Positions 11,541 through 30,891 of a DNA stretch of 40,215 nt are shown here, piece after piece. The stretch lies in contig JAAELK010000062.1 of assembly GCA_024226935.1 (NCBI GenBank), positions 1-40,215 on the forward strand. Reading direction: 5' to 3'. A program made the position numbers and the translations under genes. The first letter of the stretch is position 1; every line of letters begins with the position of its first letter. Source of the DNA: Desulfobacteraceae bacterium. Its GTDB lineage: Bacteria; Desulfobacterota; Desulfobacteria; Desulfobacterales; Desulfobacteraceae. The notes beneath the pieces were generated by a model. That model worked only from the letters and a program-made list of their open reading frames with translations. It made no database searches and was not told the DNA's origin.

Positions 11541-12278
11541 ATGGAAAATAAAATCAAACATTTGCTTTTGATCTGCTTAATCACAATTTCAGGTTTGATA
11601 TCCACACAAACAGTCCATGCGGAAAGCAAAATATTTAACGAAGATACAACAATTACCCAAGGCGCAACAATCGACACTAATGAAACCTGGATGGTAAATA
11701 TAGGTGCGGTTCTTACCATTAAATTAAACACTTCTGCATCCATATGCAATAAGGGAGTGATCAATAATATGGGTACCATCAAGATCATAGGTGATATCAA
11801 CATTGACGATATCGGTATAGTAAACACCATCAAGAATATCGGCACCATCAACAACTACTACAAGATCTGGAATAATGGCTCAATCTCTTCTGATGGAGTT
11901 ATTAATAATGATAGTGTTATCTATAACGAAGGAATATTATTTATAAAAAGCGGCATCCTCAACAACAACGACTTTAGCGATTTCAAAAACTATCCAAGTG
12001 GTTTCGTAGTAAACAAAGGAATATTCAACAATCACAGTCATTTTTCCATTGATGGTGTTTTCACAAATAATAATACTATTAACAACTACGGTTCTTTAGA
12101 GATAACAAGTGTACTCTTAAACAATGGCTTCACTAATAACCATGGTATCCTTGACAGCTCCAAATCACCTGAACTTGGAGTTGTAAACAAAGGCTATATC
12201 TTCAACTTTTGTGACAGTTTCTTTATTTGCAATCTCCACGTTGATGGTATTCACGTGCAAAACATTTCACCAGTATGA
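11541..12278 (+). CDS. Secreted Asn-rich repeat protein, probable beta-solenoid
   Basis: A 245-residue exported protein of unknown function. Residues 1-27 are a signal peptide ending VHA before ESKIF. The rest is built from loose repeats of about 8-15 residues with the pattern N-N/K-G-x-I/F-x-I, for example INNMGTIKI, NIGTINNY, IWNNGSI, VVNKGIFNN and INNYGSLEI. Alternating hydrophobic positions and asparagine/glycine turns of this kind are usual in right-handed beta-helix surface or adhesin proteins. There is no anchor, autotransporter barrel or sorting signal. Two cysteines near the C terminus (FNFCDSFFIC) could form a disulfide. AAGGAAT precedes the ATG. The gene is AT-rich compared with its neighbours. 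It ends 66 bases from the convergent megasynthase gene, with a hairpin terminator between them. Confidence 0.7.
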   Translation: MENKIKHLLLICLITISGLISTQTVHAESKIFNEDTTITQGATIDTNETWMVNIGAVLTIKLNTSASICNKGVINNMGTIKIIGDINIDDIGIVNTIKNIGTINNYYKIWNNGSISSDGVINNDSVIYNEGILFIKSGILNNNDFSDFKNYPSGFVVNKGIFNNHSHFSIDGVFTNNNTINNYGSLEITSVLLNNGFTNNHGILDSSKSPELGVVNKGYIFNFCDSFFICNLHVDGIHVQNISPV

Positions 12279-12344: not shown

Positions 12345-15300
12345 TTATAACACTGTTTCCCCTTTTTCCTTTTTTGCAGACACAAAGGAAATCTTATCTG
12401 CGATCCTGTCTTCTACGGCCAGAGGGCCTAACTTTACCATTTCAAACCCTAAAATTTCCACAAACACATTGCCTTTGGCATCGGTCAGGGTCAAATTATA
12501 GGTATTTGTTTCTGCACCGGAGTTGATTTTTTGAGTAACACAAAAATAAGATCTATTTTTTTGGATAGTACCATAAAAATTCATGGAATGAATCTTGTAG
12601 GGCAATACCGTTATAGAGCTTGTAAAAAACTCCAAAAGACCACCTGTCTGGAACATGGCATCCACCAGAACAGGCCCAGCTACAAACATAGGATCTTTCA
12701 CTCCCTTAAAAAATTCCCCGGGATTTTTATCCTCAAGGCTGGTCACAAGGGTGGTTCCATCAAAGGAATTAATATCCATGATAGTGCCAAAGACCCCAAA
12801 CATGAACAACCGGCTGGGGTGATAAACCAGGGTTTCAATATCCCCGTCAAAGGAGACAGGGGAAAATTGGGGTAGATCAATTTTCTTGGGTGCAAGACCC
12901 GTTTTTGAAAATTGATAACTGCCCTGGTAATGAAGTTTGGGATCTCCCACAACAACTCCCTTGGGATTTTTAAACACAGAAGAAATATTGCAGTCAAAAG
13001 CATTCTCATCTGTTTGTTTACCCTGGATCAATAATTCTTTTGGCCTTCCCTTGAGCAATTTAATTCCATAGGGAATGGAAAAATCGGACAAATTTGTCAG
13101 ATGTTTGCTGTCACCGGACAAGGACCTTGCCACTTCGGCCATAGTCTCAATCCCAGTGGAACCAAGAAATAGAGGAACATCTCCCATGGTATGATCATGG
13201 AGGAAGATATCGCGTTTCAAATCAAGCACCCTGGAATAGGTTACACTGGAACTTGTCTGGTCAACAATATCATCCAGAAAGGGAAAAGCTTTATCACTGG
13301 GATCACCCAAGAGACCATCAATATCAAAGTCATAATCCATACCGGAAAAAACCATTTCAGATTCTGTCCTGTCCAAAAGATCAGCCATGAAAAATTTCAC
13401 TCCCTGATCCATGGGCAAAAACTGAATTCCCCGATCTTCCAGAACTTTTTTTACTGTTGGATTTGTGGCCATTCCCACCCCACCCCAGGCTGTCCAGGCA
13501 TAAACCTTATAGGTTCTTTCCGGATGACGCTGTTTTTCCAAAAACATGGTCTTACCGAGAAAATCATTGGCAGCCGTGTAATCCACCTGACCCTGGTTAC
13601 CAAACCGGGCAGTGACCGAAGAAAAAGTGAAAAAATATTTATAGTCACGATCTTTAGCCGCTTCCAGTAAATTGCGCATACCCTTGATCTTGACATCCAC
13701 CACCAGTTCAAAGGACCATAGTTCTTTTTTAGGAATGAACTGACTCATTTCCATACCGGCTGCATGAAAGATACCGTCAATATGGTCACAGGAGTCCACA
13801 GCTTTTTTCACAGCTTTAAAGTCCGTAACATCCACACATTTGTAATCCACCTGAATCCCCAAAGATTGAAGGTATTCAATGTTTTCCACCGACTGACGTA
13901 CCCGGATCAACCGATCCAACGCCCGTTTGATTTCAACGGGTTTAACCCCCGGCATGTCGCTACGAAGCAATGCCATAAGATCTGCTGAACTGGATGACTT
14001 CTCTAAATATTTCGGATCAGTGGCATAGATATCATTGATATCCAGGATGACCAGATTGACCTTATAAGTCTCCACTACCCGTTTAAGGATTTCATAGGTA
14101 ATTCCCCCGGCACCGCCTGTTACAAGCAGGGTGTCATTTTCGGAGACGATCCTCTGGGTCCTGTCTGCGATACTTTGATGCATGGAAAGGACATAACGTT
14201 TTTTATTCTTATACCCAACCTCGCACCTTCCATCTTCGGACAAAAGTTCACCAATGAACAAATCTACAATCCGGTCCAGGCTCTTTTTAGGATGCTTATA
14301 AGAAAAATCCACCACCTTGACCTGGGTGTCAGGCATCTCTTTATTGACTGTTTTCATAAGCCCTGCCAACCCGGCAAACATGGGATGAATTTCGCCTCCA
14401 CCGGCCATATAAGGAAAAATCACGGAATCAAAGGTGATAGCACCCATAATATTTCCTTTGCCATCCAGAATATCAAACAGGCTTTTTATCAGAACAAAGG
14501 CAGATTTTATGGTAGTATCCAATTCTTCGTCCGATGCAAAGACAGGATTTTTTACCTCTGCCGCATTTTTACCAGCAAAATAATAATCCAGGGGAGCCAG
14601 ATGGATAAAGCCGTTCACCCCGGAAGTTTTGGTTTTAAACCCTTCCAGTTTCTCTTCCATCCCCTTGATATCACTAAGATCCAAATCAAGATCAACCGGA
14701 TTATTACCATTTTGAACACCCATGGTAATAACCTCACCTCCAAGCCCCTTTATCCTGTCAATAACGGCCCCGGCAAACCCGTGACTATCCAGGGAGATCA
14801 GAATTTTCTTTCCCTTAAAATCCCTGGTAGAAGCCTTGGGCATAGCTGCCTCATCCACCCGTACCACCAATCGTTTGATGGGGGATGTTACATCTGGAAA
14901 CCCATGGGAAGAATCAACAGGTAAAACCTTTTCCACTCCATCCCCCGATCCTGTAACCGATATGGGCTCTTTAGCCGGAGCTATGGTTATCTGGGCTCTT
15001 TGATTTATATAGTCAGCCAGTTTAGCAATGGTGTTCAACTCTCTGAGTTTCAAATCATCGGGCACGGAAAAATCGAAGATGGAAGCAACCTTTGCAAAAA
15101 TTTCCACCTGTTTTACCGTATCAATTCCCAGATCTGCTTCCAGATCTAGGTCATCTTCCAGCATGTCAGCTGCATACCCCGTCTGCTGTGCAATCACGTC
15201 CCGCACAGTATCAATGGCATCATTACCAGGAATTTGACTGGCTATCCCGGGAGAACCAACCGAATCAGGAGTCTTAGGAGCTGTTGGAACAGATGGCTCA

Positions 15301-18300
15301 GGCTTTAAAACCTGCGCCTGGGAAGTACCACCGATTCGAGCTTGAACATATTCGGCCAGTCTGGCAATTGTGTTCAGATCCCGCAATTTCAAATCATCTG
15401 GCACGGAAAAACCAAAGGTAGAAGCCACCTTGGCAAAAATCTCCACCTGTTTTACCGTATCAATTCCCAGATCTGCTTCCAGATCCAGGTCACCTTCCAA
15501 CATATCCGCCGCATAACCGGTCTGTTCAGCAATCACTTCTTTAACCGTTGCAACGGCATCGGGTGCAACAACTAAAGCTTCCTGCTTGGGTTGTGAAGCC
15601 AAAGCCTTGTCAGCAACAGCCAAAACAGGTGATTCAACAGGAGTTGCCACCCTGCTACCAACATAGTCCGCCAGTTTTTGAATGGTATTTAAATTTCTAA
15701 GTTTCAAGTCATCGGGCACGGAAAAACCAAAGGTAGAAGCCACCTTGGCAAAAATCTCCACCTGTTTTACCGTATCAATTCCAAGATCTGCTTCCAGATC
15801 CAGATCATCCTCCAGCATGTCAGCTGCATACCCGGTCTGCTCAGCAATCACCGTTTTTACCATCTCAATGGCATTGGAAGAACCAGCAGGAGCTAAAGGA
15901 GCAGATACCAAAACTTCAGGGACGGCCGCGGGGATATCTACCCGGGTAGCCACATAGGCCCCTAATTTTTCAATGGTGTTCAACTCCCGCAATTTCAGAT
16001 CATCGGGCACTGGAAAACTAAAAGCTGCTGCAATATTGCCAAAGATTTCCACCTGTTTTACCGTATCAATTCCCAGATCAGCTTCCAGATCCAGATCATC
16101 TTCCAGCATATCAGCCGCATAACCGGTCTGTTCAGCAATAATCTGTTTTACCTTCGCAACCGGAACTGCGGCAGGTTCCAGAACAGACTGGGGGTTAGAA
16201 TCTAAAACGGCTGTTTCAATGACAGGAGCCGACGGACTGACCGAAACCTGACCTGTTTTTGACACCTGGCTTTTATTTTCCGACCCGTCAAACTTTTTCG
16301 TATCAGGTTCCAACGGCCCTGTTTCTGGATCCCCGGCAATAACACAAAGAGTATTATCGATCACTTTAAGTTCCGGCTTTTGGGAACCGGTTATCTTTCT
16401 GAGCCATTTATGATAGGCCCGATTGCCTTTAACTGGATTTTCCTCCACCCGCTTAACAAAAACAAAAGCAAAATGGGATCCAAAGCCAGCGGACAGATGA
16501 AGACCATACTCAGAATCAATTTTATCCTGGCCGGAAAAATTAAGTTTTCTGAAATGGCTGGGTATTTTTTTAAGATTAGCAATGGGGGGTGCCTTGCGTT
16601 TTTGCAAAGCCTTAACCATAACTACATCCTCAATTGCAGCTCCCAGGGTATGACCGGTAAAGCCCTTGGTGTTAGAGATACAGATCTTGCTCAAATACTT
16701 GGAAAAAGTAGTTTCAAGGGCTGTAACTTCAGCATCGGCACTACCTCCCCTGGCCGGAGTATAGGTTTCATGGGACATAAAGAGCAGCTTATCTGCATAA
16801 TCTTCCTTCCTCAACCCCGTCCGATTTTCCACCTTGGTAATGAATTTTTTCATTTCACTGGCCATATGGGGAACATCAATATTAAAGGTGTGATAAGCTG
16901 AATTGGCCATATGTGTTCCAAGAATCTCACACTGACCGGTCATACCACGTTTATTCACACTGGACTGGTCTTCGATGACCATGCCGATGGCACCTGAACC
17001 CAGAATTGTTCCATTACGGTCTTCGTCAAAGGGCTTAGCGCCTTCGGACACTCTTTTTTTAATGGTGGCAGCCCCCAGAGCTAAAAAGCCAGAACCCACC
17101 CATTGATTCTGGGTAGGTGAGGTAGCATTTTCCCCGCCTATGACCAGAACTCGCTTGCACCTGCCCACCCGAATCCAATCTTCTGCAATACCGATGGCAA
17201 GGGTGGTGGAAGCACAAGCGGAAGATACCAGGGTATTTGGTCCCTTGGCCTTGATGATCTGGGCAAGATGGGCAGATCCCAATGGGCAGTAATTGGCCAC
17301 AAAGTTCCGATCAAACTTGTAAGTATCAACATCGGTACGTTTCCGGGATTTTGCCTTGAAGAACCATTCCGTGAGTTCTTCCTTAATCTCCATCTCCTTT
17401 ACCTTCTCCATGAGGTAATAATAGATCTTTTCAAATTCCTCATAGGGTTTGAGAAACAGTTTTCCATAATAATATTTCTCAAGCTCCTTGATCAGGGTTT
17501 CAGAATTAGGCCATAAAGAAGTAATAATAACACCGGTTTCCTCCTGCATCTCCTCGGGAAGAGCAAATCCGGCCGGAATCATGGTCTTGCCGCCCTTCAT
17601 TTTCTTGTATTGCATAACCAAGGGGATATTGGCATCCTTAAGAGCTTCTATCCCTGCGGCAATGCCCATGGCCATGGCCACATCATATTGTTCCTTTATA
17701 CCGTATTCATCGGTGAGATCAAAATATCCCAACTGACCAGCCAAATGGATGACATCCTCTGTTTTGGTGATCTGAACAAATTTAGCATTACCATCGGGTT
17801 GTTTAAAAAGCTTAGTGATATTTTTATCAGTCAACTCTTCCATGGCAGCTGTGGATAAGGGTTCAATAAAATTTTTGCCGTTAAGGATGGCATCAAAATT
17901 ATCCTTGGAAAAGACACGACGAGCCTTGCCCGGCAATCCCACAGAAACACCTGAAATCATAATACGCTGGGTATTGAAATTAAACCGTTCCATGGCATCA
18001 ACAGCCAAATTACGCTTCTGATGCTGGAACTCCTTATACAATATCCGATCCACAAAGCTCTGATTATTTTGTTTGAATGATTCAAAATCTTCTGACATTT
18101 CTATTTCAGGTAACTCCTCTTTAACTGCTACTTGGTGCTCAACAATCTCCTCTGGCTCCGGATGTACAATGGTCTTAGGCTCAAATATGGCGTTGCATGA
18201 AATCAGATATTGGCGACAAGCCTCAAAAGAGGCAACCTCGCCGACCCTTGCATCCACTGACACGGCCGTACCATATTCACCCACATTGATATTTTTCAAC

Positions 18301-21300
18301 AAATTAACCAGGAGTCGAGATGGACCGATTTCAATGAAATGAGTCCGACCGGAGACATAGACATTTTCAATGGATTTAATAAACTCAACGGGAGAAACAA
18401 TCTGCTTTGCAAGCAGGTCTTTTACCTCTTCCGGCTGGTCCGGGTAAGGTTGGGCCATGGTATTGGAAATAATCCTTCCATACCGGGTATTATTAAATTG
18501 AAGGGGAGCAAGATAAGCTCTTAATTTATCCGAGGCTTCTTTTAGCATCGGGGTATGAAAAGCACCGGTAAGATTAAGTTTCTTATAAACCACAGCCTGC
18601 TGGGACAGATATTGACAAAATTTTTCAATATCCTCAGCCTTACCGGATACAGCAGTCTGTTTTTCACTATTCTTATTGGTAATATAAATATTTGACACAA
18701 AGGATTTTCGAATAAGGCTGGCCGTCTCTTTTTCATTTTTAAAGACCACCATGATTTTACCTGGATCCTTCAGTGTTGATTCATACATGAGATCCGAGCG
18801 TTTAATGATAAGCCGCATGGCATCTTCAAATCCCAACATCCCGGAACAAAAAAGAGCTGTATATTCCCCCACACTATGGCCAATAAAATAATCCGGAGCA
18901 AACCCTTCCATGGCCAAACGACTACAAATAGCAGCAGAAGAAAGGAAAACAGCCGGTTGAGTATTCTGGGTGGAATTGAGTCTATCATCTTCTTTGAACA
19001 TCATATCCAGCAAAGAATATCCCCGCAATTTTTTGAAGATGGTATCCCCTTTTTCCAGAACAGACCGGATATGGGCATCAGCCTCAAACAATTCTTTCAT
19101 CATGCCGGGCCTCTGGGCTCCCTGGCCTGATAACAAGGCCACCATACGTAATTTCTTTCCCCTATGATCCGCGGAATAGGAAGTATCACCAAGCACCAGA
19201 TCATCTCCAGGCAAAGTCTTGTATTCAACTTCAATCACCGGCTGAGCACTTGCCGATTGAACACTTGCCGATTGAACACTTGCCGATTGAACACTTGCTG
19301 ATTGAACACTTGCTGACTCAACACTTTCGGACTGGTCAAAACCGGCCAATTGTCGTTCCAAAACCCTGGGCAGGCAGCTCACAATCATATGACCGTGGTT
19401 TCCACCAATACCGTTAACATTGGCAGCAAACATGAAAGTTTGATCAGAACTTCTGGACACCACCTTCGTGGCTGGTTTCAAGATTTTAGAATCATTGAGT
19501 GTGGAATATTTTTGATCATAATTAAAGTCGGGTAAAATTTGTCCCTTGGAGTTCATGAGCATAAGCTTAGCCAGGGCAACAGCCGGATTGGCCGCCTTGA
19601 AATACCCAAACTGAGGCTTAATGTTGGCGCAATACATTTCATGATTAAAACAAGCCTCGGTCACTTGTTTCTCAATAATATCTCCAAAAATATTGGAAAA
19701 GGCAAAAAGATCCAGGTGATTGATATCCGATTTTCTGATACCAGATTTTTGGTAGGCCTCATTGATGACAGATACAAAGGTCTGCTCGGAAGGTGCCAAC
19801 AGGTGATCGGGTACACTGGAACGAATAGTGCACTCATTAATCTCACCTAAAATCTTCATACCGGCATCTTTGGCTTTTTTATAGGTGGTCAGGACATGAA
19901 TGGCAGCGCCCTCACCCATAACATAACCTTCTGCACGGGAATCAAAATATTTACATGCCCCCTCGGATAAAAGTCCTAGACGCTTAAAGGCCATGAGTAC
20001 TGCAGGGTAAAGATTACAGTCCACCCCGCCAGCCAGAACAAAGTCCAGATCCTTATGTTTCAAATTCCTTGTGGCATTGCGGATGGCAATGGTGGAGGAA
20101 GCACAGGAGGCATCCAACACATAATTAGGCCCGTTAAGATCGAAAAAATTAGCAATTCTACCGGAAATAATATTGGATAAAAGTCCGGGGGTAGTATCTT
20201 CATTATTTTCCGGAATATCTGAACAGATGGCATCCACAATCTCTTGACCCACAGTCCCTGCAATATCAGCAGGAAGCCCAGAACAATTTTTGATCAAATT
20301 ACCGATAAAGTTTTTCCGGACCCGGATAATATTCTTACTCTGGCGTTCCCCGGAAATAGTCCCCAGAATGACCCCGGTCCTAACAGAAGCTCCTTTTTTT
20401 TCCAATAAACCACAGGATTCCAAAGCTTCACCGGCGGCTTCCAACCCGAAGAGCTGGCCGCGCTCAATGGATCTAACCATTTTAGGGGGCATTCTGTATT
20501 TGATACTGTTAAATTTATAATCTTTTATGACACCGGCCTTGATCTTGGGTAACCTGTAATGGGAATTTTTATCAAAGGCTGCATAGGCATCGTTATCGAA
20601 ATGTTCCTTGGGAATATGGGATAATTGTTTTTCCCCGGTGGATAATTTTTCCCAAAATTCTTCAGTATTGCTGGCCCCGGGAAGAAACACGCCAAGACCT
20701 GCAACCACAATCCTGTCTTCATTAAAATCATAGGTCAGGTCCGAAAAGATATCGCGTTTCATAGCCTCATACCCATCTGTCATCTCTTCCACGACCATAT
20801 GATAGTTAATACCCCCAAACCCATAGGAAGAAATCCCGGCCTTTCGGGTCTTACCAGTTCCAGGGTCCCAGGCTTTGGCATCTTCCACAATATACATGGA
20901 AGAATCACTCAAATCACAGTTATCGGACAGGGTCTTAAATTTCCCATTGGGAGGCAAAACTCCTTTATTCACTGCAAGCAAGGCTTTTAATAAACCGGCA
21001 GATCCAGCACACCCAAGCAGATGGCCTATCTGGGATTTGATGGAACTAACTCCTGCATGGGCATTTTTATACATGGTTGCAAGGGTTTTCAACTCAACCT
21101 CATCACCCACCTGGGTGGAAGTACCATGGGCTTCGATAAACCCTATGTCCTCGGGAAGAATTTCCGGCCGGATATTTTCAAAACAACGGGCCAGACTCAT
21201 CTCCTGACCTTTGGGCTTAGGAGCAGCAATAGCTTTGCCTTTTCCATCGGAACTACCCCCAATGGAATTAATAACCCCTAAGATCTTATCCTTATCCCTG

Positions 21301-24242
21301 ATGGCATCTTTCATACGTTTTAAAACAAACACCACAGAACCTTCACCCAGAACAAAGCCGTCGGCACGACCATCAAAAGGATAGGACCCCGTTGCAGACA
21401 AAGCTCCTATCTTGGCAAATCCGATAAAAGATTCCGGAGCCAAATGGGTATTTACCCCACCCACAATAACCTGATCGTGATCACCGGATAAAAGTTCCCC
21501 CACCGCAGCCTCAATGGCAGTGATGGAAGATGCACAGGCCGCATCCACAACATAGTTGGCACCCCTGGCACCCAAGTGCCGGGCAATTCTGGAGGCTTCA
21601 ATATTCAAAAGAATTCCGTGGACGGGATCATACCCCTTATGTTCCCCTTCCATCCCATTTTGCAGAGCCTGTTTAATTTTTTCTTTTTCAGCATCTCCAA
21701 GGGTAGCGTACTCCTTGGTTTTCTCCAGCATGGAAACCACTTCCGGATACCAGTATTTAAGCTGGATCTCATTTGCCAATTCATTGGCAAGGCAAGTGGC
21801 AATAATAACAGCTGTCCTTTGGGGATCATCGGTTATCAACCTGTCATCTTCCCCCAGAAGCCCTGCATTTTCCACTGCTTTATAAGCTGTAGAAAGCGCC
21901 ATTTGCTGACTTCGGGACAGATGTTTTTCCTTGCCTTCATCATAACCGAATCGATCACTATCAAATTTGAAATCATCCACATGACCGGCCAAAATAGTAT
22001 AGGTGGTATCATCGGCGTTCTTATCCGGATTATAATATAAATCTCTGTCAAAACGGGCTTTGGGCATCTCACTGATGGAATATTTTTTATTCAGAATATT
22101 CTCCCAGAGCATGTCCGGATTATCTGCATGGGGAAGAGTACAACCAATACCCACCACGGCAATCTCGTCTTTGATTTTATTTACCGGACTGGAAAAGATC
22201 TCCAATTGATTGATGTGTGCGAACAGGTCGGCCTTGCCACTAAAATATTGATCATGGATCTCTTTGATGGAAACAGGTTCCTTGAAAAAAGCCAGGCTAT
22301 CACCCACCAGAAAATTTCCCTTTTCCCTATGTTCAGCATCGTCAAACCAAGTGTAGTTATCTTTTCCTGGATTTTTAAAATCCGGCAGAAAACCTTTAGC
22401 ACCAATGAGTAGAGAGCCGATATTGCGTTTTTCAAAGGAGCGTTTTCGCTGGGATAATTTTTCATTATTCAAAATCATCCGGGCTTCATGTTCCTCCATT
22501 TCCTTGGCAAAACGGGTGGGAGCTGTTCTGGATGCAAGCCCCAGACTCCTGCCAATGACCACTGTTTCATCTTTTTCAATGATAATTTCCTGATATTGTT
22601 TTTTCACAGCTTTTGTGTCAACAATTTCATTGGAAAACAGATAGGCAGTACCTACCTGAATCCCGATTTTTGCCCCCCTGGCAGCAAGAAAGGAAGCCAT
22701 ACCAGAGATGAAAAAAGAGGCAAAGGCCGTGGTAATACCACCGGCAAAAACCAGATAAAGGTCGGATAAATCCCGTGATGTATTGATCAATTTTGCTATG
22801 GCGGCTTCCCATAGAACCATGCTGGACAGGGAACCCACATGCCCACCTGCTTCACCACCCTCAAAAATAAACCTGCGACACCCATTTTCCAGTGCATTTT
22901 CCATCATGGAAACAGATGGAGTGTGCAGATAGGTTTTGGTGCCAGCCTTTTCCAGTTCAACCACCTGGGAGGGAATACCACCTGCAAACAAAGCATAGGG
23001 TACCTTGTATTTTTTTACCATATCCAGATGCTTGTGAACTGCGGGATTAAAGGCTTCAATACCCACAAGACCGGCGCCAAAATTTATAACTTTGTCTGCC
23101 CCATCTTTGAGCATATCATCGGCCAGGGTTTCGGGCTGGCTCCCCACAGCAAAAAAGGGTAAGGCTCCGGCTTCCAATACCATATTAGCAAATTGACTAT
23201 TGTCCGAAATATTAGCCATGGGTCCCTGGATCAATGGGAACTTGGTGGATTGATCTTTTGCAAAAGCAGAATCCGGCACCACCGGATCATACCGGTCAAT
23301 AAAATCAAGATTTTCCCCGATAACAGTAAAAAAAGAAGATACCATGGATTCAAGACTGGTAGATTCCCTGGCAAAGTCCTTGGCAAAAACCCCATCCTGG
23401 CCGAGATAGAACAAGGACTGAATAAATGAGACATCCTGATTATCCAGACCAACTATGTTATTGGCAATGGACTGATAAATCTGATTATGCCCATCACTTG
23501 CCTCGGCAACCTGAACAGCTTCCTGTTTAAGATCCCTGACAATCTTGGTCCCCAGCTTTGCAAAAACCCGATAAATCTCTTTATCCTGGAAAATAATTTC
23601 AGTGGAATCTCCTTCATCCACCATGGCCAACAATTTTTTAAAATTTTGTGATACAGGGGCCTCATCTGCCAACAACACCTGACTGTCCATAACAAACCCG
23701 GACACTCCTGCAGCCAGCATACCGGCAGCAGTATACCTGCCAACACCTCCATGGATAAAAACAGGCAGATCACTATTTTTCAAATACCATTGCATGAGGA
23801 TAAAAGAAGAATATCTGGACACCTTTCCCGCAGCCTCATTCCCCTTGAGAATCAAACCATGGGGATCAACGGCCTTTATATTATCAATCAGATGAATATC
23901 ATTAATTTCAAGAATTATTTTTGTACCACTAAAATTAGAAAAATCAGCGGCCTTATCCTCTTTAGAAAGGGGGACAATCAAAAGATCAAGGTTAGGCATA
24001 TTTTTCTGCTTCAGGGCAGCAATGGTATCATGGTCATGGGAAGATAACCGCAAGCCAAAGCCAAGATTTTCCCTGGAAAGCAAAGAAGCCTTTTCCAGAA
24101 TATCATCATGACTTAAAAACTCCGTATCAAAGACAGGTAAAGCACCAGACCGGTAGATGGCATGAAAATAGCTGGAGTCAAATACCTTGACGGGTGTATA
24201 AATCATCAAAGGCAATCTTGAATTCAGTATTCTTGTAATCAT
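12345..24242 (-). CDS. Single-chain PUFA-synthase-like type I megasynthase (NPD-NPD-KS-KS*-AT-KS-4xACP-KR-DH)
   Basis: A 3965-residue iterative polyketide/fatty-acid synthase. In order: two nitronate-monooxygenase/PfaD-like flavin barrels (about 1-240 and 330-600; GGEAGGHVG near 466); KS1 (692-1140) with C903, H1039 and H1074; KS2 (1175-1620) with C1380 but no catalytic histidines; an SASVQ-repeat linker; a malonyl-type AT (1700-1990, GHSVGEYTA, S1790); KS3 (2090-2620) with C2343, H2491 and H2531; four acyl carrier domains (GIDTVKQ centred on T2727, T2824, T2929 and T3042); a ketoreductase (about 3130-3620, GGAGGI, Y3555); and a hot-dog dehydratase (about 3650-3950, LHDHTMG and DAMFQ). I start at the second of two close ATGs because GGAG is eight bases upstream. 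KS, AT, tandem ACP, KR and DH follow PfaA; the barrels correspond to PfaD. No thioesterase is visible. The product is unknown, probably a long reduced acyl chain. Confidence 0.9.
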   Translation of the reverse strand: MITRILNSRLPLMIYTPVKVFDSSYFHAIYRSGALPVFDTEFLSHDDILEKASLLSRENLGFGLRLSSHDHDTIAALKQKNMPNLDLLIVPLSKEDKAADFSNFSGTKIILEINDIHLIDNIKAVDPHGLILKGNEAAGKVSRYSSFILMQWYLKNSDLPVFIHGGVGRYTAAGMLAAGVSGFVMDSQVLLADEAPVSQNFKKLLAMVDEGDSTEIIFQDKEIYRVFAKLGTKIVRDLKQEAVQVAEASDGHNQIYQSIANNIVGLDNQDVSFIQSLFYLGQDGVFAKDFARESTSLESMVSSFFTVIGENLDFIDRYDPVVPDSAFAKDQSTKFPLIQGPMANISDNSQFANMVLEAGALPFFAVGSQPETLADDMLKDGADKVINFGAGLVGIEAFNPAVHKHLDMVKKYKVPYALFAGGIPSQVVELEKAGTKTYLHTPSVSMMENALENGCRRFIFEGGEAGGHVGSLSSMVLWEAAIAKLINTSRDLSDLYLVFAGGITTAFASFFISGMASFLAARGAKIGIQVGTAYLFSNEIVDTKAVKKQYQEIIIEKDETVVIGRSLGLASRTAPTRFAKEMEEHEARMILNNEKLSQRKRSFEKRNIGSLLIGAKGFLPDFKNPGKDNYTWFDDAEHREKGNFLVGDSLAFFKEPVSIKEIHDQYFSGKADLFAHINQLEIFSSPVNKIKDEIAVVGIGCTLPHADNPDMLWENILNKKYSISEMPKARFDRDLYYNPDKNADDTTYTILAGHVDDFKFDSDRFGYDEGKEKHLSRSQQMALSTAYKAVENAGLLGEDDRLITDDPQRTAVIIATCLANELANEIQLKYWYPEVVSMLEKTKEYATLGDAEKEKIKQALQNGMEGEHKGYDPVHGILLNIEASRIARHLGARGANYVVDAACASSITAIEAAVGELLSGDHDQVIVGGVNTHLAPESFIGFAKIGALSATGSYPFDGRADGFVLGEGSVVFVLKRMKDAIRDKDKILGVINSIGGSSDGKGKAIAAPKPKGQEMSLARCFENIRPEILPEDIGFIEAHGTSTQVGDEVELKTLATMYKNAHAGVSSIKSQIGHLLGCAGSAGLLKALLAVNKGVLPPNGKFKTLSDNCDLSDSSMYIVEDAKAWDPGTGKTRKAGISSYGFGGINYHMVVEEMTDGYEAMKRDIFSDLTYDFNEDRIVVAGLGVFLPGASNTEEFWEKLSTGEKQLSHIPKEHFDNDAYAAFDKNSHYRLPKIKAGVIKDYKFNSIKYRMPPKMVRSIERGQLFGLEAAGEALESCGLLEKKGASVRTGVILGTISGERQSKNIIRVRKNFIGNLIKNCSGLPADIAGTVGQEIVDAICSDIPENNEDTTPGLLSNIISGRIANFFDLNGPNYVLDASCASSTIAIRNATRNLKHKDLDFVLAGGVDCNLYPAVLMAFKRLGLLSEGACKYFDSRAEGYVMGEGAAIHVLTTYKKAKDAGMKILGEINECTIRSSVPDHLLAPSEQTFVSVINEAYQKSGIRKSDINHLDLFAFSNIFGDIIEKQVTEACFNHEMYCANIKPQFGYFKAANPAVALAKLMLMNSKGQILPDFNYDQKYSTLNDSKILKPATKVVSRSSDQTFMFAANVNGIGGNHGHMIVSCLPRVLERQLAGFDQSESVESASVQSASVQSASVQSASVQSASAQPVIEVEYKTLPGDDLVLGDTSYSADHRGKKLRMVALLSGQGAQRPGMMKELFEADAHIRSVLEKGDTIFKKLRGYSLLDMMFKEDDRLNSTQNTQPAVFLSSAAICSRLAMEGFAPDYFIGHSVGEYTALFCSGMLGFEDAMRLIIKRSDLMYESTLKDPGKIMVVFKNEKETASLIRKSFVSNIYITNKNSEKQTAVSGKAEDIEKFCQYLSQQAVVYKKLNLTGAFHTPMLKEASDKLRAYLAPLQFNNTRYGRIISNTMAQPYPDQPEEVKDLLAKQIVSPVEFIKSIENVYVSGRTHFIEIGPSRLLVNLLKNINVGEYGTAVSVDARVGEVASFEACRQYLISCNAIFEPKTIVHPEPEEIVEHQVAVKEELPEIEMSEDFESFKQNNQSFVDRILYKEFQHQKRNLAVDAMERFNFNTQRIMISGVSVGLPGKARRVFSKDNFDAILNGKNFIEPLSTAAMEELTDKNITKLFKQPDGNAKFVQITKTEDVIHLAGQLGYFDLTDEYGIKEQYDVAMAMGIAAGIEALKDANIPLVMQYKKMKGGKTMIPAGFALPEEMQEETGVIITSLWPNSETLIKELEKYYYGKLFLKPYEEFEKIYYYLMEKVKEMEIKEELTEWFFKAKSRKRTDVDTYKFDRNFVANYCPLGSAHLAQIIKAKGPNTLVSSACASTTLAIGIAEDWIRVGRCKRVLVIGGENATSPTQNQWVGSGFLALGAATIKKRVSEGAKPFDEDRNGTILGSGAIGMVIEDQSSVNKRGMTGQCEILGTHMANSAYHTFNIDVPHMASEMKKFITKVENRTGLRKEDYADKLLFMSHETYTPARGGSADAEVTALETTFSKYLSKICISNTKGFTGHTLGAAIEDVVMVKALQKRKAPPIANLKKIPSHFRKLNFSGQDKIDSEYGLHLSAGFGSHFAFVFVKRVEENPVKGNRAYHKWLRKITGSQKPELKVIDNTLCVIAGDPETGPLEPDTKKFDGSENKSQVSKTGQVSVSPSAPVIETAVLDSNPQSVLEPAAVPVAKVKQIIAEQTGYAADMLEDDLDLEADLGIDTVKQVEIFGNIAAAFSFPVPDDLKLRELNTIEKLGAYVATRVDIPAAVPEVLVSAPLAPAGSSNAIEMVKTVIAEQTGYAADMLEDDLDLEADLGIDTVKQVEIFAKVASTFGFSVPDDLKLRNLNTIQKLADYVGSRVATPVESPVLAVADKALASQPKQEALVVAPDAVATVKEVIAEQTGYAADMLEGDLDLEADLGIDTVKQVEIFAKVASTFGFSVPDDLKLRDLNTIARLAEYVQARIGGTSQAQVLKPEPSVPTAPKTPDSVGSPGIASQIPGNDAIDTVRDVIAQQTGYAADMLEDDLDLEADLGIDTVKQVEIFAKVASIFDFSVPDDLKLRELNTIAKLADYINQRAQITIAPAKEPISVTGSGDGVEKVLPVDSSHGFPDVTSPIKRLVVRVDEAAMPKASTRDFKGKKILISLDSHGFAGAVIDRIKGLGGEVITMGVQNGNNPVDLDLDLSDIKGMEEKLEGFKTKTSGVNGFIHLAPLDYYFAGKNAAEVKNPVFASDEELDTTIKSAFVLIKSLFDILDGKGNIMGAITFDSVIFPYMAGGGEIHPMFAGLAGLMKTVNKEMPDTQVKVVDFSYKHPKKSLDRIVDLFIGELLSEDGRCEVGYKNKKRYVLSMHQSIADRTQRIVSENDTLLVTGGAGGITYEILKRVVETYKVNLVILDINDIYATDPKYLEKSSSSADLMALLRSDMPGVKPVEIKRALDRLIRVRQSVENIEYLQSLGIQVDYKCVDVTDFKAVKKAVDSCDHIDGIFHAAGMEMSQFIPKKELWSFELVVDVKIKGMRNLLEAAKDRDYKYFFTFSSVTARFGNQGQVDYTAANDFLGKTMFLEKQRHPERTYKVYAWTAWGGVGMATNPTVKKVLEDRGIQFLPMDQGVKFFMADLLDRTESEMVFSGMDYDFDIDGLLGDPSDKAFPFLDDIVDQTSSSVTYSRVLDLKRDIFLHDHTMGDVPLFLGSTGIETMAEVARSLSGDSKHLTNLSDFSIPYGIKLLKGRPKELLIQGKQTDENAFDCNISSVFKNPKGVVVGDPKLHYQGSYQFSKTGLAPKKIDLPQFSPVSFDGDIETLVYHPSRLFMFGVFGTIMDINSFDGTTLVTSLEDKNPGEFFKGVKDPMFVAGPVLVDAMFQTGGLLEFFTSSITVLPYKIHSMNFYGTIQKNRSYFCVTQKINSGAETNTYNLTLTDAKGNVFVEILGFEMVKLGPLAVEDRIADKISFVSAKKEKGETVL
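15060..16155 (-). repeat. Four tandem acyl-carrier-protein modules
   Basis: Four copies of a carrier module inside the megasynthase, centred near 16064, 15773, 15458 and 15119 on the plus strand and spaced about 290-340 bp apart. Each encodes the same core (GYAADMLE, DLDLEADLGIDTVKQVEIF and VPDDLKLR-LNTI) joined by Pro/Ala-rich linkers. The copies are very similar at nucleotide level, which suggests recent duplication or gene conversion. Tandem ACPs are a hallmark of PUFA synthases, where ACP number influences yield. All four copies have Thr where Ser normally carries phosphopantetheine. Confidence 0.85.
19245..19320 (-). repeat. 15-bp tandem repeat encoding an SASVQ linker
   Basis: About five copies of a 15-base unit (coding strand TCAGCAAGTGTTCAA and variants) that encode SASVQ repeats. 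They lie in the flexible linker between KS2 and the acyltransferase domain. The unit is in frame, so copy-number changes by slippage would alter linker length without breaking the protein. The copies differ from each other by single bases. Confidence 0.75.
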
Positions 24243-24540
24243 AAACATAACTCCATATATAGTTTTTGGTATCATCTTTATTTGACTGCCTGCCAAATGA
24301 AAAACGATGGTTCTCAAACATTTATTTTAATTTCAATTTCCATTTTATATATCAAAGAGTGTGCCACCCTGTATGTTTTTTCTAACACCCTGAAATAAAA
24401 ACCATTTATAAAAAAAAATGTTTTTTTCATCATAACCACCTTTAAATATTCTGGCATTTTATGTATACTGGCCATACAAAATTGCTCAAAGATTTAAATA
24501 TTTTTAATAGATTAATCTGCTTCAACCAAATGGAGATCCT
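24243..24540. other. Divergent control region between megasynthase and regulator
   Basis: About 300 bases shared by two divergent genes. On the minus strand it holds a -24/-12-type promoter candidate, listed separately. On the plus side TATACT (24464-24469) with TTTAAA 17 bases upstream is a weak sigma-70 candidate for the regulator gene. An imperfect dyad TGTAT-N7-ATACA (24462-24478) overlaps that -10 box and is a candidate binding site for the regulator itself or another factor. Runs of A and T near 24410-24427 may bend the DNA. Roles are inferred. Confidence 0.45.
24351..24366 (-). promoter_or_regulatory. Candidate sigma-54 (-24/-12) promoter of the megasynthase
   Basis: On the minus strand TGGCACACTCTTTGAT matches TGGCAC-N5-TTGCA with a perfect -24 element. 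The distance between the invariant GG and the -12 dinucleotide is correct (10 bases), but the -12 element reads GA instead of GC. Transcription would start near 24340, about 100 bases before the megasynthase ATG. The adjacent divergent gene encodes a sigma-54 activator, which supports the assignment. Confidence 0.55.
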
Positions 24541-26034
24541 GTGAGAAAAATTCAATTGGACCAAAAAGAAAGACAATTCTTCAAAACCGTCCATAATGCA
24601 GCCTTTGCAAACCCGTTCAGCGAGCTAAGGGAAAAATTGGACCAGAAGATTGCCGGACTTTTCCCTTCTGCATCCCGCAGGGAAAGCAAAGACAAAGGCG
24701 TCTGGGAAGTGGATAAACGTTTAAAAAAACTGGAAACGGAAAATAAAGCAAATATAAATGACTACCAGGACGGGGACAAAGAAATACTTCGGGTGGTCTA
24801 TCTATTCGATATCTTCCATAAATTCAGGGACAAATTTGATCAATTAATCAAAGAGCAGATCAAAGCCAAAGACTCACCGGTCAAAGTTGATTTTGTTGAA
24901 CAAGCAAAACAGATGGTTCTTCAAAAAGGTTTTGACACCAAAACCTTTTACCATTATTTCGCCCTATCCTACCAGTTGAGGAGGGCATTTTATTTTATAT
25001 CCCACGCCCTGGTGGGCAATAGTACCTGTATGCGCAACCTGAAAAAACATCTCTGGTATAATATTTTCACCCATAATATTGAACTCTATGACAATGTTCT
25101 ATGGAACAAAATGGAGGATTTTTCCACCCTGCTCATAGGTGAGACCGGAACCGGGAAAGGAACAGCAGCCCAGGCCATAGGTCGAAGCGGCTATATCCCC
25201 TTCGATATCAAAAAAGGATATTTCACAGAAAGCTTTACCCAGGCCTTTTCCTCCCTGAACCTCTCCCAATACCCTGAGACCCTTTTAGAATCCGAATTAT
25301 TCGGCCACACCAAGGGGGCATTCACCGGAGCTGTTGAAGACTACCAAGGGGTTTTTGACAGGTGCAGCCCCCACGGCTCCATCCTATTGGATGAAATCGG
25401 AGAGATCCCCAACCATGTACAAATCAAACTTTTACGGGTTCTCCAGGAAAGGCACTTTTCCCCCGTGGGGGCACACACAACTTTACGGTTTAATGGCCGT
25501 GTCATTGCCGCCACCAACCGCCCCAAAGAAGAGATCATGGGTGGCAAAATTTTCAGGGATGACTTTTACTATCGACTCTGTTCAGATATCATCGAGGTTC
25601 CCCCCTTGCGAACCAGAATCAAAGAATCTCCATCGGAACTGGATGATCTTTTGAATTTCACCATCCACCGCATGACCGGTATGGATTCACAAAAATTAAC
25701 CCAAGAAGTAAAAAGAATCATTGACCGCCGGCTGGGAAAGAATTATCAATGGCCAGGTAATGTCAGGGAATTAGAGCAATGCGTTAGAAGCGTATTATTG
25801 AAAAGAGATTACAAGGGCACTAAAATCAGAGAACCAGCCCAGTTATCCCTTTCCAAACTCCTTCAACGGGGAATAAAAGAAAAAAATATTACAGTACCAG
25901 ACCTTGTGGCAGGGTACTGTAAACTGCTCTATGACACCCTTGGAACCTACGAAAAAGTGGCCCGAAAAACGGGGCTGGACCGACGAACCATAAAAAAATA
26001 CATAGAGACCCATACAAAAGGACACAAAGACTGA
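24541..26034 (+). CDS. Sigma-54-dependent transcriptional activator (enhancer-binding protein)
   Basis: A 497-residue AAA+ activator of RNA polymerase-sigma-54. The N-terminal 180 residues are charged and helical and match no receiver, GAF or PAS domain that I can recognise, so the signal is unknown. The ATPase domain has Walker A GETGTGKG (about 200-207), ESELFGHTKGAFTGA with the sigma-54 contact loop GAFTGA at 259-264, Walker B ILLDEIGE near 282 and WPGNVRELEQCV near 405. The C-terminal Fis-type helix-turn-helix lies at about 466-492 (YEKVARKTGLDRRTIKKYI). It starts at GTG 24541, with GGAG five bases upstream. It is divergent from the megasynthase and overlaps the acyltransferase gene by one base, so it is probably the local regulator of this lipid locus. 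Confidence 0.92.
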   Translation: MRKIQLDQKERQFFKTVHNAAFANPFSELREKLDQKIAGLFPSASRRESKDKGVWEVDKRLKKLETENKANINDYQDGDKEILRVVYLFDIFHKFRDKFDQLIKEQIKAKDSPVKVDFVEQAKQMVLQKGFDTKTFYHYFALSYQLRRAFYFISHALVGNSTCMRNLKKHLWYNIFTHNIELYDNVLWNKMEDFSTLLIGETGTGKGTAAQAIGRSGYIPFDIKKGYFTESFTQAFSSLNLSQYPETLLESELFGHTKGAFTGAVEDYQGVFDRCSPHGSILLDEIGEIPNHVQIKLLRVLQERHFSPVGAHTTLRFNGRVIAATNRPKEEIMGGKIFRDDFYYRLCSDIIEVPPLRTRIKESPSELDDLLNFTIHRMTGMDSQKLTQEVKRIIDRRLGKNYQWPGNVRELEQCVRSVLLKRDYKGTKIREPAQLSLSKLLQRGIKEKNITVPDLVAGYCKLLYDTLGTYEKVARKTGLDRRTIKKYIETHTKGHKD

Positions 26035-26924
26035 TGCTTTCTTTTTTACCCTCCCCCCTCAAAGGTATTTTATCCTTTCTACTTGCCCTGGTTAATACTA
26101 TTTGCCTGACTATACCCCTGATTTTTCTATCTCTATTTAAATTTATCATCCCCTTGCCTTCTGCCATTGTAATTGTGGATAAAATTCTAATCGCCATTGC
26201 CACTTTATGGATCAACATAAATTCATTAAATTCGGCTCTGTTCTCTAAAATTGATTGGGATATCCGCGGGATGGAAAAATTAAAAAAAAAGGAGTGGTAT
26301 CTGGTCATGTCCAACCACCAGTCCTGGGTAGACATCCTAGTGCTTCAAAAAACATTGAACAAAAAAATTCCCATGTTAAAATTTTTTTTAAAAAAAGAAC
26401 TCATTTGGGTTCCCTTTCTGGGGATTGCCTGGTGGGCATTGGATTTTCCATTCATGAAACGGTATTCAAAAAAAATTCTTGCCCAAAAACCACATCTGCG
26501 GGGCAAGGACCTTGAAAGTACAAAAAAAGCTTGTAAAAAGTTTAAGCACACACCCATATCCATCATGAATTTTGTAGAAGGCACACGGTTCACCCCCCAA
26601 AAAAACAGTAATCAAAAGGCACCCTTTACCCATCTGCTCACCCCAAGAGCCGGTGGAGTTGCATTTGTTCTGGGATCCATGGGGGACTATCTGCACAAAA
26701 TAATTGATGTTACCATCATATATCCCGATAAAATCCCAAGTTTTTGGGACTTTCTCTCCGGAAAACCCAAAAAAATTATTATTGATCTTAAAGTTTTAGA
26801 GGTGAACCAGGCACTGAAAGGAGATTATTTTAATGACCCGGAATACAAAGCCACCTTTTGTAAATGGCTGAACAGGATATGGATAGAAAAAGATGAAAGA
26901 ATAAGCCGGATCAAGAACCAATAG
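26034..26924 (+). CDS. PlsC-type 1-acylglycerol-3-phosphate acyltransferase (YihG-like)
   Basis: A 296-residue membrane-associated acyltransferase that probably transfers an acyl chain to a glycerophosphate or lysophospholipid. Two hydrophobic segments occupy about residues 10-65. The catalytic NHxxxxD motif is NHQSWVD with H95 and D100; the substrate-binding FVEGTR motif has E182 and R185. The sequence between them (FPFMKRY) and the length resemble the YihG/LCLAT-like branch rather than classic PlsC. The ATG overlaps the regulator stop in TGATG, so the two are translationally coupled. The link to the divergent synthase suggests that it places the synthase product into a lipid; this is inference, and it could instead be a general phospholipid enzyme. 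Confidence 0.85.
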   Translation: MLSFLPSPLKGILSFLLALVNTICLTIPLIFLSLFKFIIPLPSAIVIVDKILIAIATLWININSLNSALFSKIDWDIRGMEKLKKKEWYLVMSNHQSWVDILVLQKTLNKKIPMLKFFLKKELIWVPFLGIAWWALDFPFMKRYSKKILAQKPHLRGKDLESTKKACKKFKHTPISIMNFVEGTRFTPQKNSNQKAPFTHLLTPRAGGVAFVLGSMGDYLHKIIDVTIIYPDKIPSFWDFLSGKPKKIIIDLKVLEVNQALKGDYFNDPEYKATFCKWLNRIWIEKDERISRIKNQ

Positions 26925-29178: not shown

Positions 29179-30891
29179 TCAAATAATGGCTGCCACTACC
29201 CCGGCAAACAAAAAAGAAGACTCGATTAAAAACTCATATTGCCGACCGGATAACAAGCTATCTTTTTTATGCAATCTAATCAATAGAAGCATAAAAAGGG
29301 GCACAAAGGCAAGTAGGAATGCATTATTAGCGAATAAATCGGTCCAATAAGCAAATATTAAAATAAAAATATTAAAGGCCAACACATATTGAATAAGACT
29401 AAAACTTTTTTCAGGACCCAAAAGAATAGGAAGAGTTTCCTTTCCCGTAATCCGATCCCCTTGAATTGCCAACACATCAAAAAAAGCAGTTCTGGCAAAG
29501 ACCAAACCCGTGGAAAAAACAAAAGTGGTCACCCCGGGCAGAATATAACCAGAATTTGCAATTGCCGGCAATAAACTGGTAACAATCCCCCAGGCAATGG
29601 CAATGAGGATGGTTTTAGACCCGGGTATATCTTTAATCCGGGTAATTTTACTATTCCCAAAAACAACAGGAATACTTTTTAAATTATAAGACAATCCCAA
29701 GAGACTCATTACAAGCAGAATACAAAAAGAAACAAATCCAGTTGTATAAGCCAAATAGAGCCCTCCTGCCCCGGAACCAAGAGCAAGCACCCGCAAAAAA
29801 GCCTGGTGGTTTTTATAAAAGACAGCCCGTTCAGGATGATTATAAGTATCCGATTTAATAGTAATTATATTATTTAAAATCTGCATGGACAACACATACA
29901 ACATGGCAACGGCAGAATGAATAAGTATCTGTGAGAAATCCTGAACCATGGCGCAGGCATATGTCAGCCCTCCGGCACCACCGGCCAGCAAAAGGTTGCT
30001 CTTAAGCAAAAAATCCCTGATTTGTACCAATACTCCAATTATGGGACGCTGCTTTTGCACATTATATGCTACCTTTGCACAGGTATCATTGATAATCCAA
30101 TTGGGCGTGGATGCCCCGGCTGTAATCGCAATAGATTTTGCCGATTCCAAAGCCTTGTAATCAATTTGCGAAGCATCTTCAATAAGAGTAGCCAAAGTGC
30201 CTGTTTCCTTTGCAACCTGGACAAGACGCCTGGTATTACCGGATTGTTTTCCACCCACAACAATCACGGCATCATTTTTTTGGGCCAATTGCCGCACCTC
30301 GGACTGCCGTTTTTCCGTGGATCCACAAATTGTGTTAAAAATTTTATAATGGGGAGCATTCCGGGCACACCATGCTTTTATCTGCTCATAAAACACAGTA
30401 TTCTGAGTAGTCTGGGCAACCACCACGGCATTTTCAAATGCAGGCAAGGTCTTTAATTGTTCCATGGAGGTAATTGTATAACCATTTCCCCTGGCATACC
30501 CCAAAAGCCCCACCACTTCCGGATGCTTCTTATCTCCGATAATAATTGTGGCATAACCCTTTTTCGCATAACGATTGATAATCACCTGGACACTGACCAC
30601 CCTGGGGCAAGTAGCATTCAAAACAGTAAATCCTGCTTTTTCCAAGGACAACTCATCTTCAGGCGGAACTCCATGTGCCCGGATCAGGACAATCCCCTCT
30701 CCTTTTTCCGGGATGGTCTCAAACCGAAAAATTTTTTTATTTTCCAGCATTTCCAAAACCTGGGGGTTATGGATAAGTGGTCCATAGGTAAATATAGGTT
30801 CGCCGGCACAATTTGATGCATCCAAGACCATATCCACCGCACGCCGGACCCCCATACAAAAACCTGCTGTCTTTGCAACGGTTATTTTCAT
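29179..30891 (-). CDS. ispH: IspH (HMBPP reductase) fused to a UbiA-family prenyltransferase domain
   Basis: A 570-residue fusion. Residues 1-280 are IspH, the iron-sulfur enzyme that converts HMBPP to IPP and DMAPP in the last step of the MEP pathway. The three cluster cysteines lie in GFCMGV, NATCPRV and TICGST, and substrate-site segments RAHGVPP, QTTQN and TAGASTPNW are present. Residues 290-570 form a polytopic domain with about eight helices and UbiA signatures: LSYNLKSIPV, the GSKTILIAIAWG segment, and FFDVLAIQGDRITGKETLPILLG with the second aspartate motif. The first motif is weaker, reading NNIITIKSDTYN instead of NDxxDxxxD. The ATG at 30891 overlaps the parB stop in ATGA. The fusion could pass prenyl diphosphate towards a membrane acceptor, but the UbiA substrate is unknown. 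Confidence 0.88.
   Translation of the reverse strand: MKITVAKTAGFCMGVRRAVDMVLDASNCAGEPIFTYGPLIHNPQVLEMLENKKIFRFETIPEKGEGIVLIRAHGVPPEDELSLEKAGFTVLNATCPRVVSVQVIINRYAKKGYATIIIGDKKHPEVVGLLGYARGNGYTITSMEQLKTLPAFENAVVVAQTTQNTVFYEQIKAWCARNAPHYKIFNTICGSTEKRQSEVRQLAQKNDAVIVVGGKQSGNTRRLVQVAKETGTLATLIEDASQIDYKALESAKSIAITAGASTPNWIINDTCAKVAYNVQKQRPIIGVLVQIRDFLLKSNLLLAGGAGGLTYACAMVQDFSQILIHSAVAMLYVLSMQILNNIITIKSDTYNHPERAVFYKNHQAFLRVLALGSGAGGLYLAYTTGFVSFCILLVMSLLGLSYNLKSIPVVFGNSKITRIKDIPGSKTILIAIAWGIVTSLLPAIANSGYILPGVTTFVFSTGLVFARTAFFDVLAIQGDRITGKETLPILLGPEKSFSLIQYVLAFNIFILIFAYWTDLFANNAFLLAFVPLFMLLLIRLHKKDSLLSGRQYEFLIESSFLFAGVVAAII

Follow-up and report, generated by a model that had tools for sequence, protein, structure and literature searches.

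Polyunsaturated fatty acid (PUFA) synthases of the PfaA/PfaC/PfaD kind combine a core of ketosynthase (KS), acyltransferase (AT), tandem acyl carrier protein (ACP), ketoreductase (KR) and dehydratase (DH) domains with a flavin-barrel enoyl reductase (ER). According to the available part of their 2011 paper, Shulse & Allen assign such clusters to the secondary lipid synthases, place one class, Type S, in Desulfobacterium autotrophicum HRM2, where fabA/fabZ are missing, and suggest for it a role in core fatty acid synthesis (PMC3098273); the part available of a 2016 review, on the other hand, treats the HRM2 genes as possible remnants (PMC4882568). Here we describe a megasynthase gene from a Desulfobacteraceae bacterium (assembly GCA_024226935.1), located on contig JAAELK010000062.1, whose positions 1 to 40,215 are called the window, i.e., the whole stretch of DNA analysed. 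Its product shares the KS-AT-tandem ACP-KR-DH core and the flavin-barrel ER with the PfaA/PfaC/PfaD synthases, but it is one chain, with tandem FabK-like barrels, an extra KS (KS3) and Thr-bearing carriers, and without a FabA-type DH. Judging from sequence comparisons, we consider it moderately probable that this protein is a single-chain fatty acid synthase (FAS) of type I with a core role, having replaced the type II system (FAS II) in the window's family, its Thr carriers being served by a dedicated phosphopantetheinyl transferase (PPTase).

The minus-strand frame 24317->12345 is open over 3990 codons from a TTG and comprises the following features:

12345..24317, minus strand: megasynthase gene; probable start at the ATG at 24242 (Met26 of the frame), giving 3965 aa
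23358..24230, minus strand: ER1, FabK/NMO-like barrel without the catalytic His (EAAGK in the window protein)
22203..23282, minus strand: ER2, FabK-like barrel with a GPM motif and an intact EAGGH
20763..22175, minus strand: KS1, Cys-His-His intact
19398..20735, minus strand: KS2*, its two His replaced (by F/V/G/L and by Y), Cys in 34/36 orthologues
18297..19133, minus strand: AT (GHSVGE, GAFH)
16248..17795, minus strand: KS3, Cys-His-His intact, in a clade of its own
15951..16154, minus strand: ACP1, Thr codon ACG at 16062-16064
15660..15860, minus strand: ACP2, Thr codon at 15771-15773 (computed position)
15345..15548, minus strand: ACP3, Thr codon at 15456-15458 (computed position)
15006..15212, minus strand: ACP4, Thr codon at 15117-15119 (computed position)
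13485..14132, minus strand: KR
12393..13250, minus strand: DH, double hotdog of the polyketide synthase (PKS) type, with His and Asp

The domain order in this single frame is thus ER1-ER2-KS1-KS2*-AT-KS3-4xACP-KR-DH. Pfam recognized three KS, one AT, four PP-binding, KR, PS-DH and NMO domains, the NMO match being barrel 2. Frame and architecture are kept in orthologues and are therefore not due to chance. A first-pass annotation, made by a model from the sequence alone, had already proposed the domain order, the uninterrupted 3965-aa frame, the additional KS after the AT and the lack of paired FabA-like dehydratases in the chain, and all of this stands; in particular, PF07977 had no match in the chain at E ≤ 0.001, and a structural model of the DH (mean pLDDT 70) matched PKS double-hotdog dehydratases, the best being CurK DH (1.6e-14).

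To audit the active sites, residues were counted in alignments of 36 orthologous proteins, 24 from the window's family and 12 from other families of the order, with the flavin-barrel motifs defined as in section 2.5 of PMC13311796. The motif-III His of ER2 was present in 36/36 and that of ER1 in 0/36 (K/N/Q/P/R/M/L/S/C at the site), so that the earlier suggestion of a more divergent, possibly structural barrel 1 can be restated as probably structural. KS1 and KS3 kept Cys-His-His, and the AT its Ser and His, in 36/36. KS2 was without its two His in 34/34 aligned proteins, and where its Cys was missing (two of the 36) Asp took its place. The KR Tyr was found in 30/30 and the DH His/Asp in 29/29 proteins where these regions aligned; the six and seven proteins without alignment include several on cut contigs. 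Given this conservation, ER2, KS1, KS3, the AT, the KR and the DH seem competent, and the chain appears to hold a complete saturating cycle.

Textbook carriers bear Ser, which is taken as the universal phosphopantetheine attachment site. All four ACPs of the window read LEADLGID-T-VKQ, with Thr at that site; the change is a new point, overlooked in the first-pass annotation. Across the synthase loci examined (L008-L030, L043-L070 and L137), a motif search that left the site residue free found Thr in 113/113 distinct ACP windows, a count that excludes ACPs deviating from the motif at other positions as well as loci lacking a complete window. The codons used were ACG (74), ACC (17), ACA (15) and ACT (7), and the occurrence of four synonymous codons argues for selection on the residue. 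Thr is also found in the most distant orthologue (G327, with 38% identity in KS3, from a different family in the same phylum) and in a Nonomuraea protein described below. Ten comparison proteins have Ser: the PfaA on contig C332 of the same genome and proteins of Persicobacter (two), Rhodococcus, Beijerinckia, Methylosinus, S. globosus, Azospirillum (two) and Embleya. KS domains were counted in five of them, at one per protein; in this small sample, Thr thus goes with KS3. A Ser-to-Thr change in spinach ACP was reportedly studied in 1989. In the literature searched we found no earlier report of natural Thr carriers, and the available main text of a 2026 JACS Au survey contains neither 'threonine' nor 'Desulfo' (PMC13291983).

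PF01648 matched twice in the same genome (95% complete), each time at Sfp size and never at AcpS size. In the available text of Shulse & Allen, PPTase motif P1b is tied to Types A-L and P1b' to Types M-T (PMC3098273); the enzyme on contig C559 has FNLSH, corresponding to P1b, and that on contig C225 has ISLSH, corresponding to P1b'. The PPTase for the window's synthase is probably the unlinked one on C225. PPTases related to it were located within 1.4 kb downstream of the synthase in 9/15 loci with the 3' end present, with the match starting less than 0.9 kb from the synthase end in eight and at 1.3 kb in L150. Further linked PPTases lie directly downstream (L105 and L139) or divergently at ~0.3 kb (L140), and in L138 (3836-14575, minus strand) the PPTase domain is fused to the synthase C-terminus in a single 3579-aa chain (TIGR00556, 53.1 bits, over the cut-off of 45.35). 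PF01648 was found in all six PPTases scanned. In the PPTase tree the C225 sequence grouped with the PPTase of L148, which stands beside the synthase of genome G058 (98/95); the proposal that the linked PPTases form one clade was dropped, as the tree left all but these two without resolution.

The KS3 region was found in 73/86 genomes of the window's family (E ≤ 1e-40). All 13 misses were <90% complete, and the synthase was present in every family genome ≥90% complete. Elsewhere it is sparser, with 23/146 genomes across the order and 3/297 across the phylum. FabZ scored over its cut-off in 117/146 order genomes and FabF in 119/146. None of the four own-family and three f18 genomes in that set, all seven synthase-bearing, had a FabZ (0/4 and 0/3, versus 117/139 others) or a FabF (0/7, versus 119/139 others) over the cut-off; FabH, FabD and PlsX were not searched. 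Eight of the 104 genomes ≥90% complete were without both FabZ and FabF, namely seven that bear the synthase and one (G143) that does not, and 14 of the other 96 carry the synthase (Fisher p 3.8e-5 for this comparison with 7/8, a descriptive value only, because the genomes are related and come from two families). FabI was tried as a further FAS II marker and rejected (11/146 order genomes at E ≤ 1e-20). In two family genomes, G041 and G048, second KS3 copies, 58-59% identical, suggest a paralogous synthase in some members.

In G131 and G093, two relatives in which the synthase coexists with FAS II, the gene order is FabG-acpP-FabF-rpiB-glyA-rib, the products scoring over the cut-offs for FabG (TIGR01830, 335 and 337 bits) and FabF (TIGR03150, 633 and 636 bits). 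The genome of the window reads gltX, then acpP-rpiB-glyA-rib, and FabG and FabF are absent there. Among the best 30 of the 77 family genomes with an rpiB match, acpP adjoined rpiB in 30/30 loci, with no FabF or FabG within up to ~1.5 kb on each side. The AcpP kept beside rpiB has Ser, and its retention is consistent with its serving later enzymes as an acyl donor. Missing FabZ and FabF and a reduced operon point to core fatty acid synthesis rather than to a specialised PUFA product.

With the FabK-like barrels the comparison with the Pfa systems becomes weaker. The first-pass annotation had read them as PfaD-like, i.e., as a PfaD function fused in front and duplicated, and this was not borne out, FabK being the closer match to the barrels. 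In phmmer searches against solved chains, barrel 1 retrieved FabK at E 1.5e-5 and barrel 2 at 5e-20, and neither retrieved a PfaD chain (limits E 1 and 0.01). Foldseek on an AlphaFold model of the tandem barrels placed FabK first and PfaD lower, and TIGR02814 (PfaD) was not among the best 25 of 55 NCBIfam families for the megasynthase; the genome's separate PfaD (C332) scored 607. Barrel 1, whose 24.1 bits in the genome scan do not reach the Pfam cut-off, shows a beta/alpha pattern in the tandem model, whose low confidence (mean pLDDT 59) keeps us from any claim on ER1-ER2 contacts. Two unequal barrels paired as one ER are described for the thraustochytrid ERb-ERc heterodimer; there, in the text available, both barrels keep His, whereas in the window protein barrel 1 has lost it, both barrels lie in one chain and their pairing is a prediction (PMC13311796).

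In the KS tree, KS3 of the window type forms one clade with its counterparts in G327 and Nonomuraea (100/100), outside the group of KS1, KS2, PfaA and PfaC KS domains and next to a KS of contig C522 (C522_KSc), a placement that may be a long-branch effect. KS1 groups with the KS1 of G327 and Nonomuraea (91/84), and since neither of these proteins has a separate KS2 domain, KS2 was probably added in the order's lineage. The Nonomuraea gerenzanensis protein (L084), encoded beside acetyl-CoA carboxylase, is a KS-AT-KS-ACP-KR-DH synthase whose KS3 and KS1 are 38% and 40% identical to the window's and whose ACP has Thr; unlike the window protein, it has no barrels, no KS2 and a single ACP. It resembles, by domain order alone, the 'Type R' of Shulse & Allen, given in the available text as KS, malonyl acyltransferase (MAT), chain length factor (CLF), ACP and KR (KS-MAT-CLF-ACP-KR; PMC3098273).

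A closer link to described systems comes from the G058 orthologue (L148), which has the same domain order, Thr ACPs and, ~94 bases downstream, a PPTase with ISISH, that is, an associated P1b' (hShxH)-type enzyme as expected of Type S; G058 would correspond to HRM2. Because this orthologue matches, our synthase is probably the uncharacterised 'Type S' of D. autotrophicum HRM2, and the core-FAS idea is then prior for one strain. Presumably Type S denotes this gene rather than the FabA-bearing one of HRM2; the available text on Type S gives no domain order, no Thr and no operon comparison (PMC3098273). What we add to prior knowledge is family-wide conservation, which argues against regarding the HRM2 genes as remnants, together with the missing FabF, the reduced operon, the active-site audit, the Thr carriers and the linked PPTase.

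If the synthase is indeed the core FAS of the family, it would act as an iterative, self-contained type I enzyme. The AT would put malonyl groups on the four ACPs, after modification of their Thr by the dedicated Sfp-type PPTase; KS1 and KS3 would condense, with KS2* as a non-catalytic partner; the KR would reduce and the double-hotdog DH dehydrate; and ER2 would reduce the enoyl group with FMN, ER1 being a pseudo-subunit and the tandem barrels an intramolecular ER dimer. Chains would probably be handed to the retained AcpP or to CoA, and then to acyltransferases. In this way de novo fatty acid supply may have passed from the reduced FAS II to the synthase. The core role, chain release, Thr-linked phosphopantetheine and ER1-ER2 pairing are all points that we infer. 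For the broader proposition, that a lineage of natural carriers takes phosphopantetheine on Thr from its own PPTase, and that in two families of Gram-negative anaerobes the megasynthase with these carriers is the chief or only de novo FAS left, we see the chances as evenly balanced.

Several observations weigh against the core-FAS reading with a dedicated PPTase. Besides the relatedness that limits the Fisher value, at least one of FabZ and FabF is retained by 16/23 synthase-bearing order genomes, so that FAS II need not be lost for the synthase to be present, and in G166, an f18 genome, a stand-alone FabZ-like match of 160 aa reaches 85.8 bits, below the cut-off of 113. FabI absence says nothing, because FabI is rare throughout the order. 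The KS3 match is interrupted by stops in two family genomes (G021 and G071), and no linked PPTase was found in 6/15 loci with the 3' end present, nor in L106. An adjoining sigma-54 activator is unusual for a housekeeping synthase. On contig C522 (L078/L079), a cluster that holds two ACPs and several KS encoded as separate proteins includes a FabG-like short-chain dehydrogenase/reductase over the FabG cut-off (303.7 versus 297.75 bits) and KS proteins reaching 349 bits. We considered these stand-alone KS as a hidden FAS II and judged this unlikely, since the cluster is flexirubin/aryl-polyene-like (FlxB 335 bits, just below the cut-off of 340) and no KS passes the FabF cut-off, though the reductase passes that for FabG. 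Finally, a second Pfa set with FabA dehydratases is spread family-wide and could supply core chains.

This last point underlies the best-surviving alternative, which is possible though rather unlikely: a synthase of secondary lipids whose product is a special long chain (destined for cysts, glycolipids or hydrocarbons), with core chains provided by a PfaD/PfaA-FabA-FabA plus PfaC-like set. Contig C332 (L037) indeed encodes the separate PfaD and a PfaA with C-terminal FabA-FabA domains, and contig C176 (L038) a PfaC-like protein; however, the latter gene lies ahead of OleA-, OleB- and OleC-like genes, so named from their Pfam matches, which gives it a hydrocarbon context. FabA-like domains occur in 81/86 family genomes, mostly in very large frames (at least 13 matches are in frames <360 aa), and those of the window's genome are in the PfaA- and PfaC-like proteins. 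The suggested sigma-54 control and the class name used by Shulse & Allen also suit a secondary product, but the synthase holds every activity on one chain, occurs in all family genomes ≥90% complete and, in f18 as a second family, goes together with missing FabF and FabZ.

A second alternative, which we regard as improbable, is that the ACPs are not phosphopantetheinylated and the Thr marks dead carriers, AcpP carrying acyl groups in trans. It draws on the retained Ser-bearing AcpP and on E. coli ACP S36T, which, in the available report, took no 4'-phosphopantetheine and did not support growth (PMC3340395), a result that equally counts against Thr carriers in a core FAS. Dead carriers would be expected to drift, whereas the chains hold several well-conserved copies with Thr kept through four codons, and in many synthases a PPTase is adjacent or fused. 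The 'whole PUFA-synthase-like pathway' of the first-pass annotation, an ordinary PUFA synthase rearranged into a single chain, is very improbable: the single chain is real and its KS-AT-ACPn-KR-DH core is Pfa-like, but the PfaA model TIGR02813 scores 865.6 bits, below its curated cut-off of 1010, the chain has no FabA-type DH/isomerase, its barrels are FabK-like, KS3 lies outside the Pfa KS group and the genome has a separate Pfa set. That the product is probably not a standard eicosapentaenoic or docosahexaenoic acid, also anticipated there, is supported.

A conserved natural class of Thr carriers with linked PPTase would overturn the Ser rule and give an orthogonal carrier/PPTase pair. Replacement of FAS II by a single chain in Gram-negative anaerobes would be a separate example of type I FAS among bacteria. 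A core role is directly testable in cultured Desulfobacterium or in Desulfospira, of which D. joergensenii DSM 10085 carries an orthologue (L010).

Upstream of the synthase the window contains three further features:

24351..24366, minus strand: sigma-54-like site TGGCAC-N5-TTGAT
24541..26034, plus strand: sigma-54 activator, divergent from the synthase
26034..26924, plus strand: YihG-type acyltransferase, linked in only part of the window's family

Sigma-54 control of the synthase is suggested by the fact that such a site was the best-scoring one within 300 bases upstream in 16/16 family synthases, with the consensus C of the -12 element changed to A or T. The window site scores 15/16, which was reached by 4/1000 shuffles of the upstream region (55 reached 14). 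A divergent activator stands beside the synthase in 17/20 loci of the neighbourhood set, one of the three misses being cut there; it was seen in 15/16 family loci L008-L028 (L016 is without the synthase start) and in L139 and L140, and was not found beside the L106 synthase.

On the other side of the gene, the frame at 11541-12278 (plus strand) was considered as a candidate PPTase and set aside: its 245-aa product is repetitive and rich in asparagine, has a signal-like start and matched no family. Further away, at 29179-30900 (minus strand), IspH (LytB) is fused to a UbiA prenyltransferase in a single 573-aa frame, an arrangement that is conserved beside many synthase loci.
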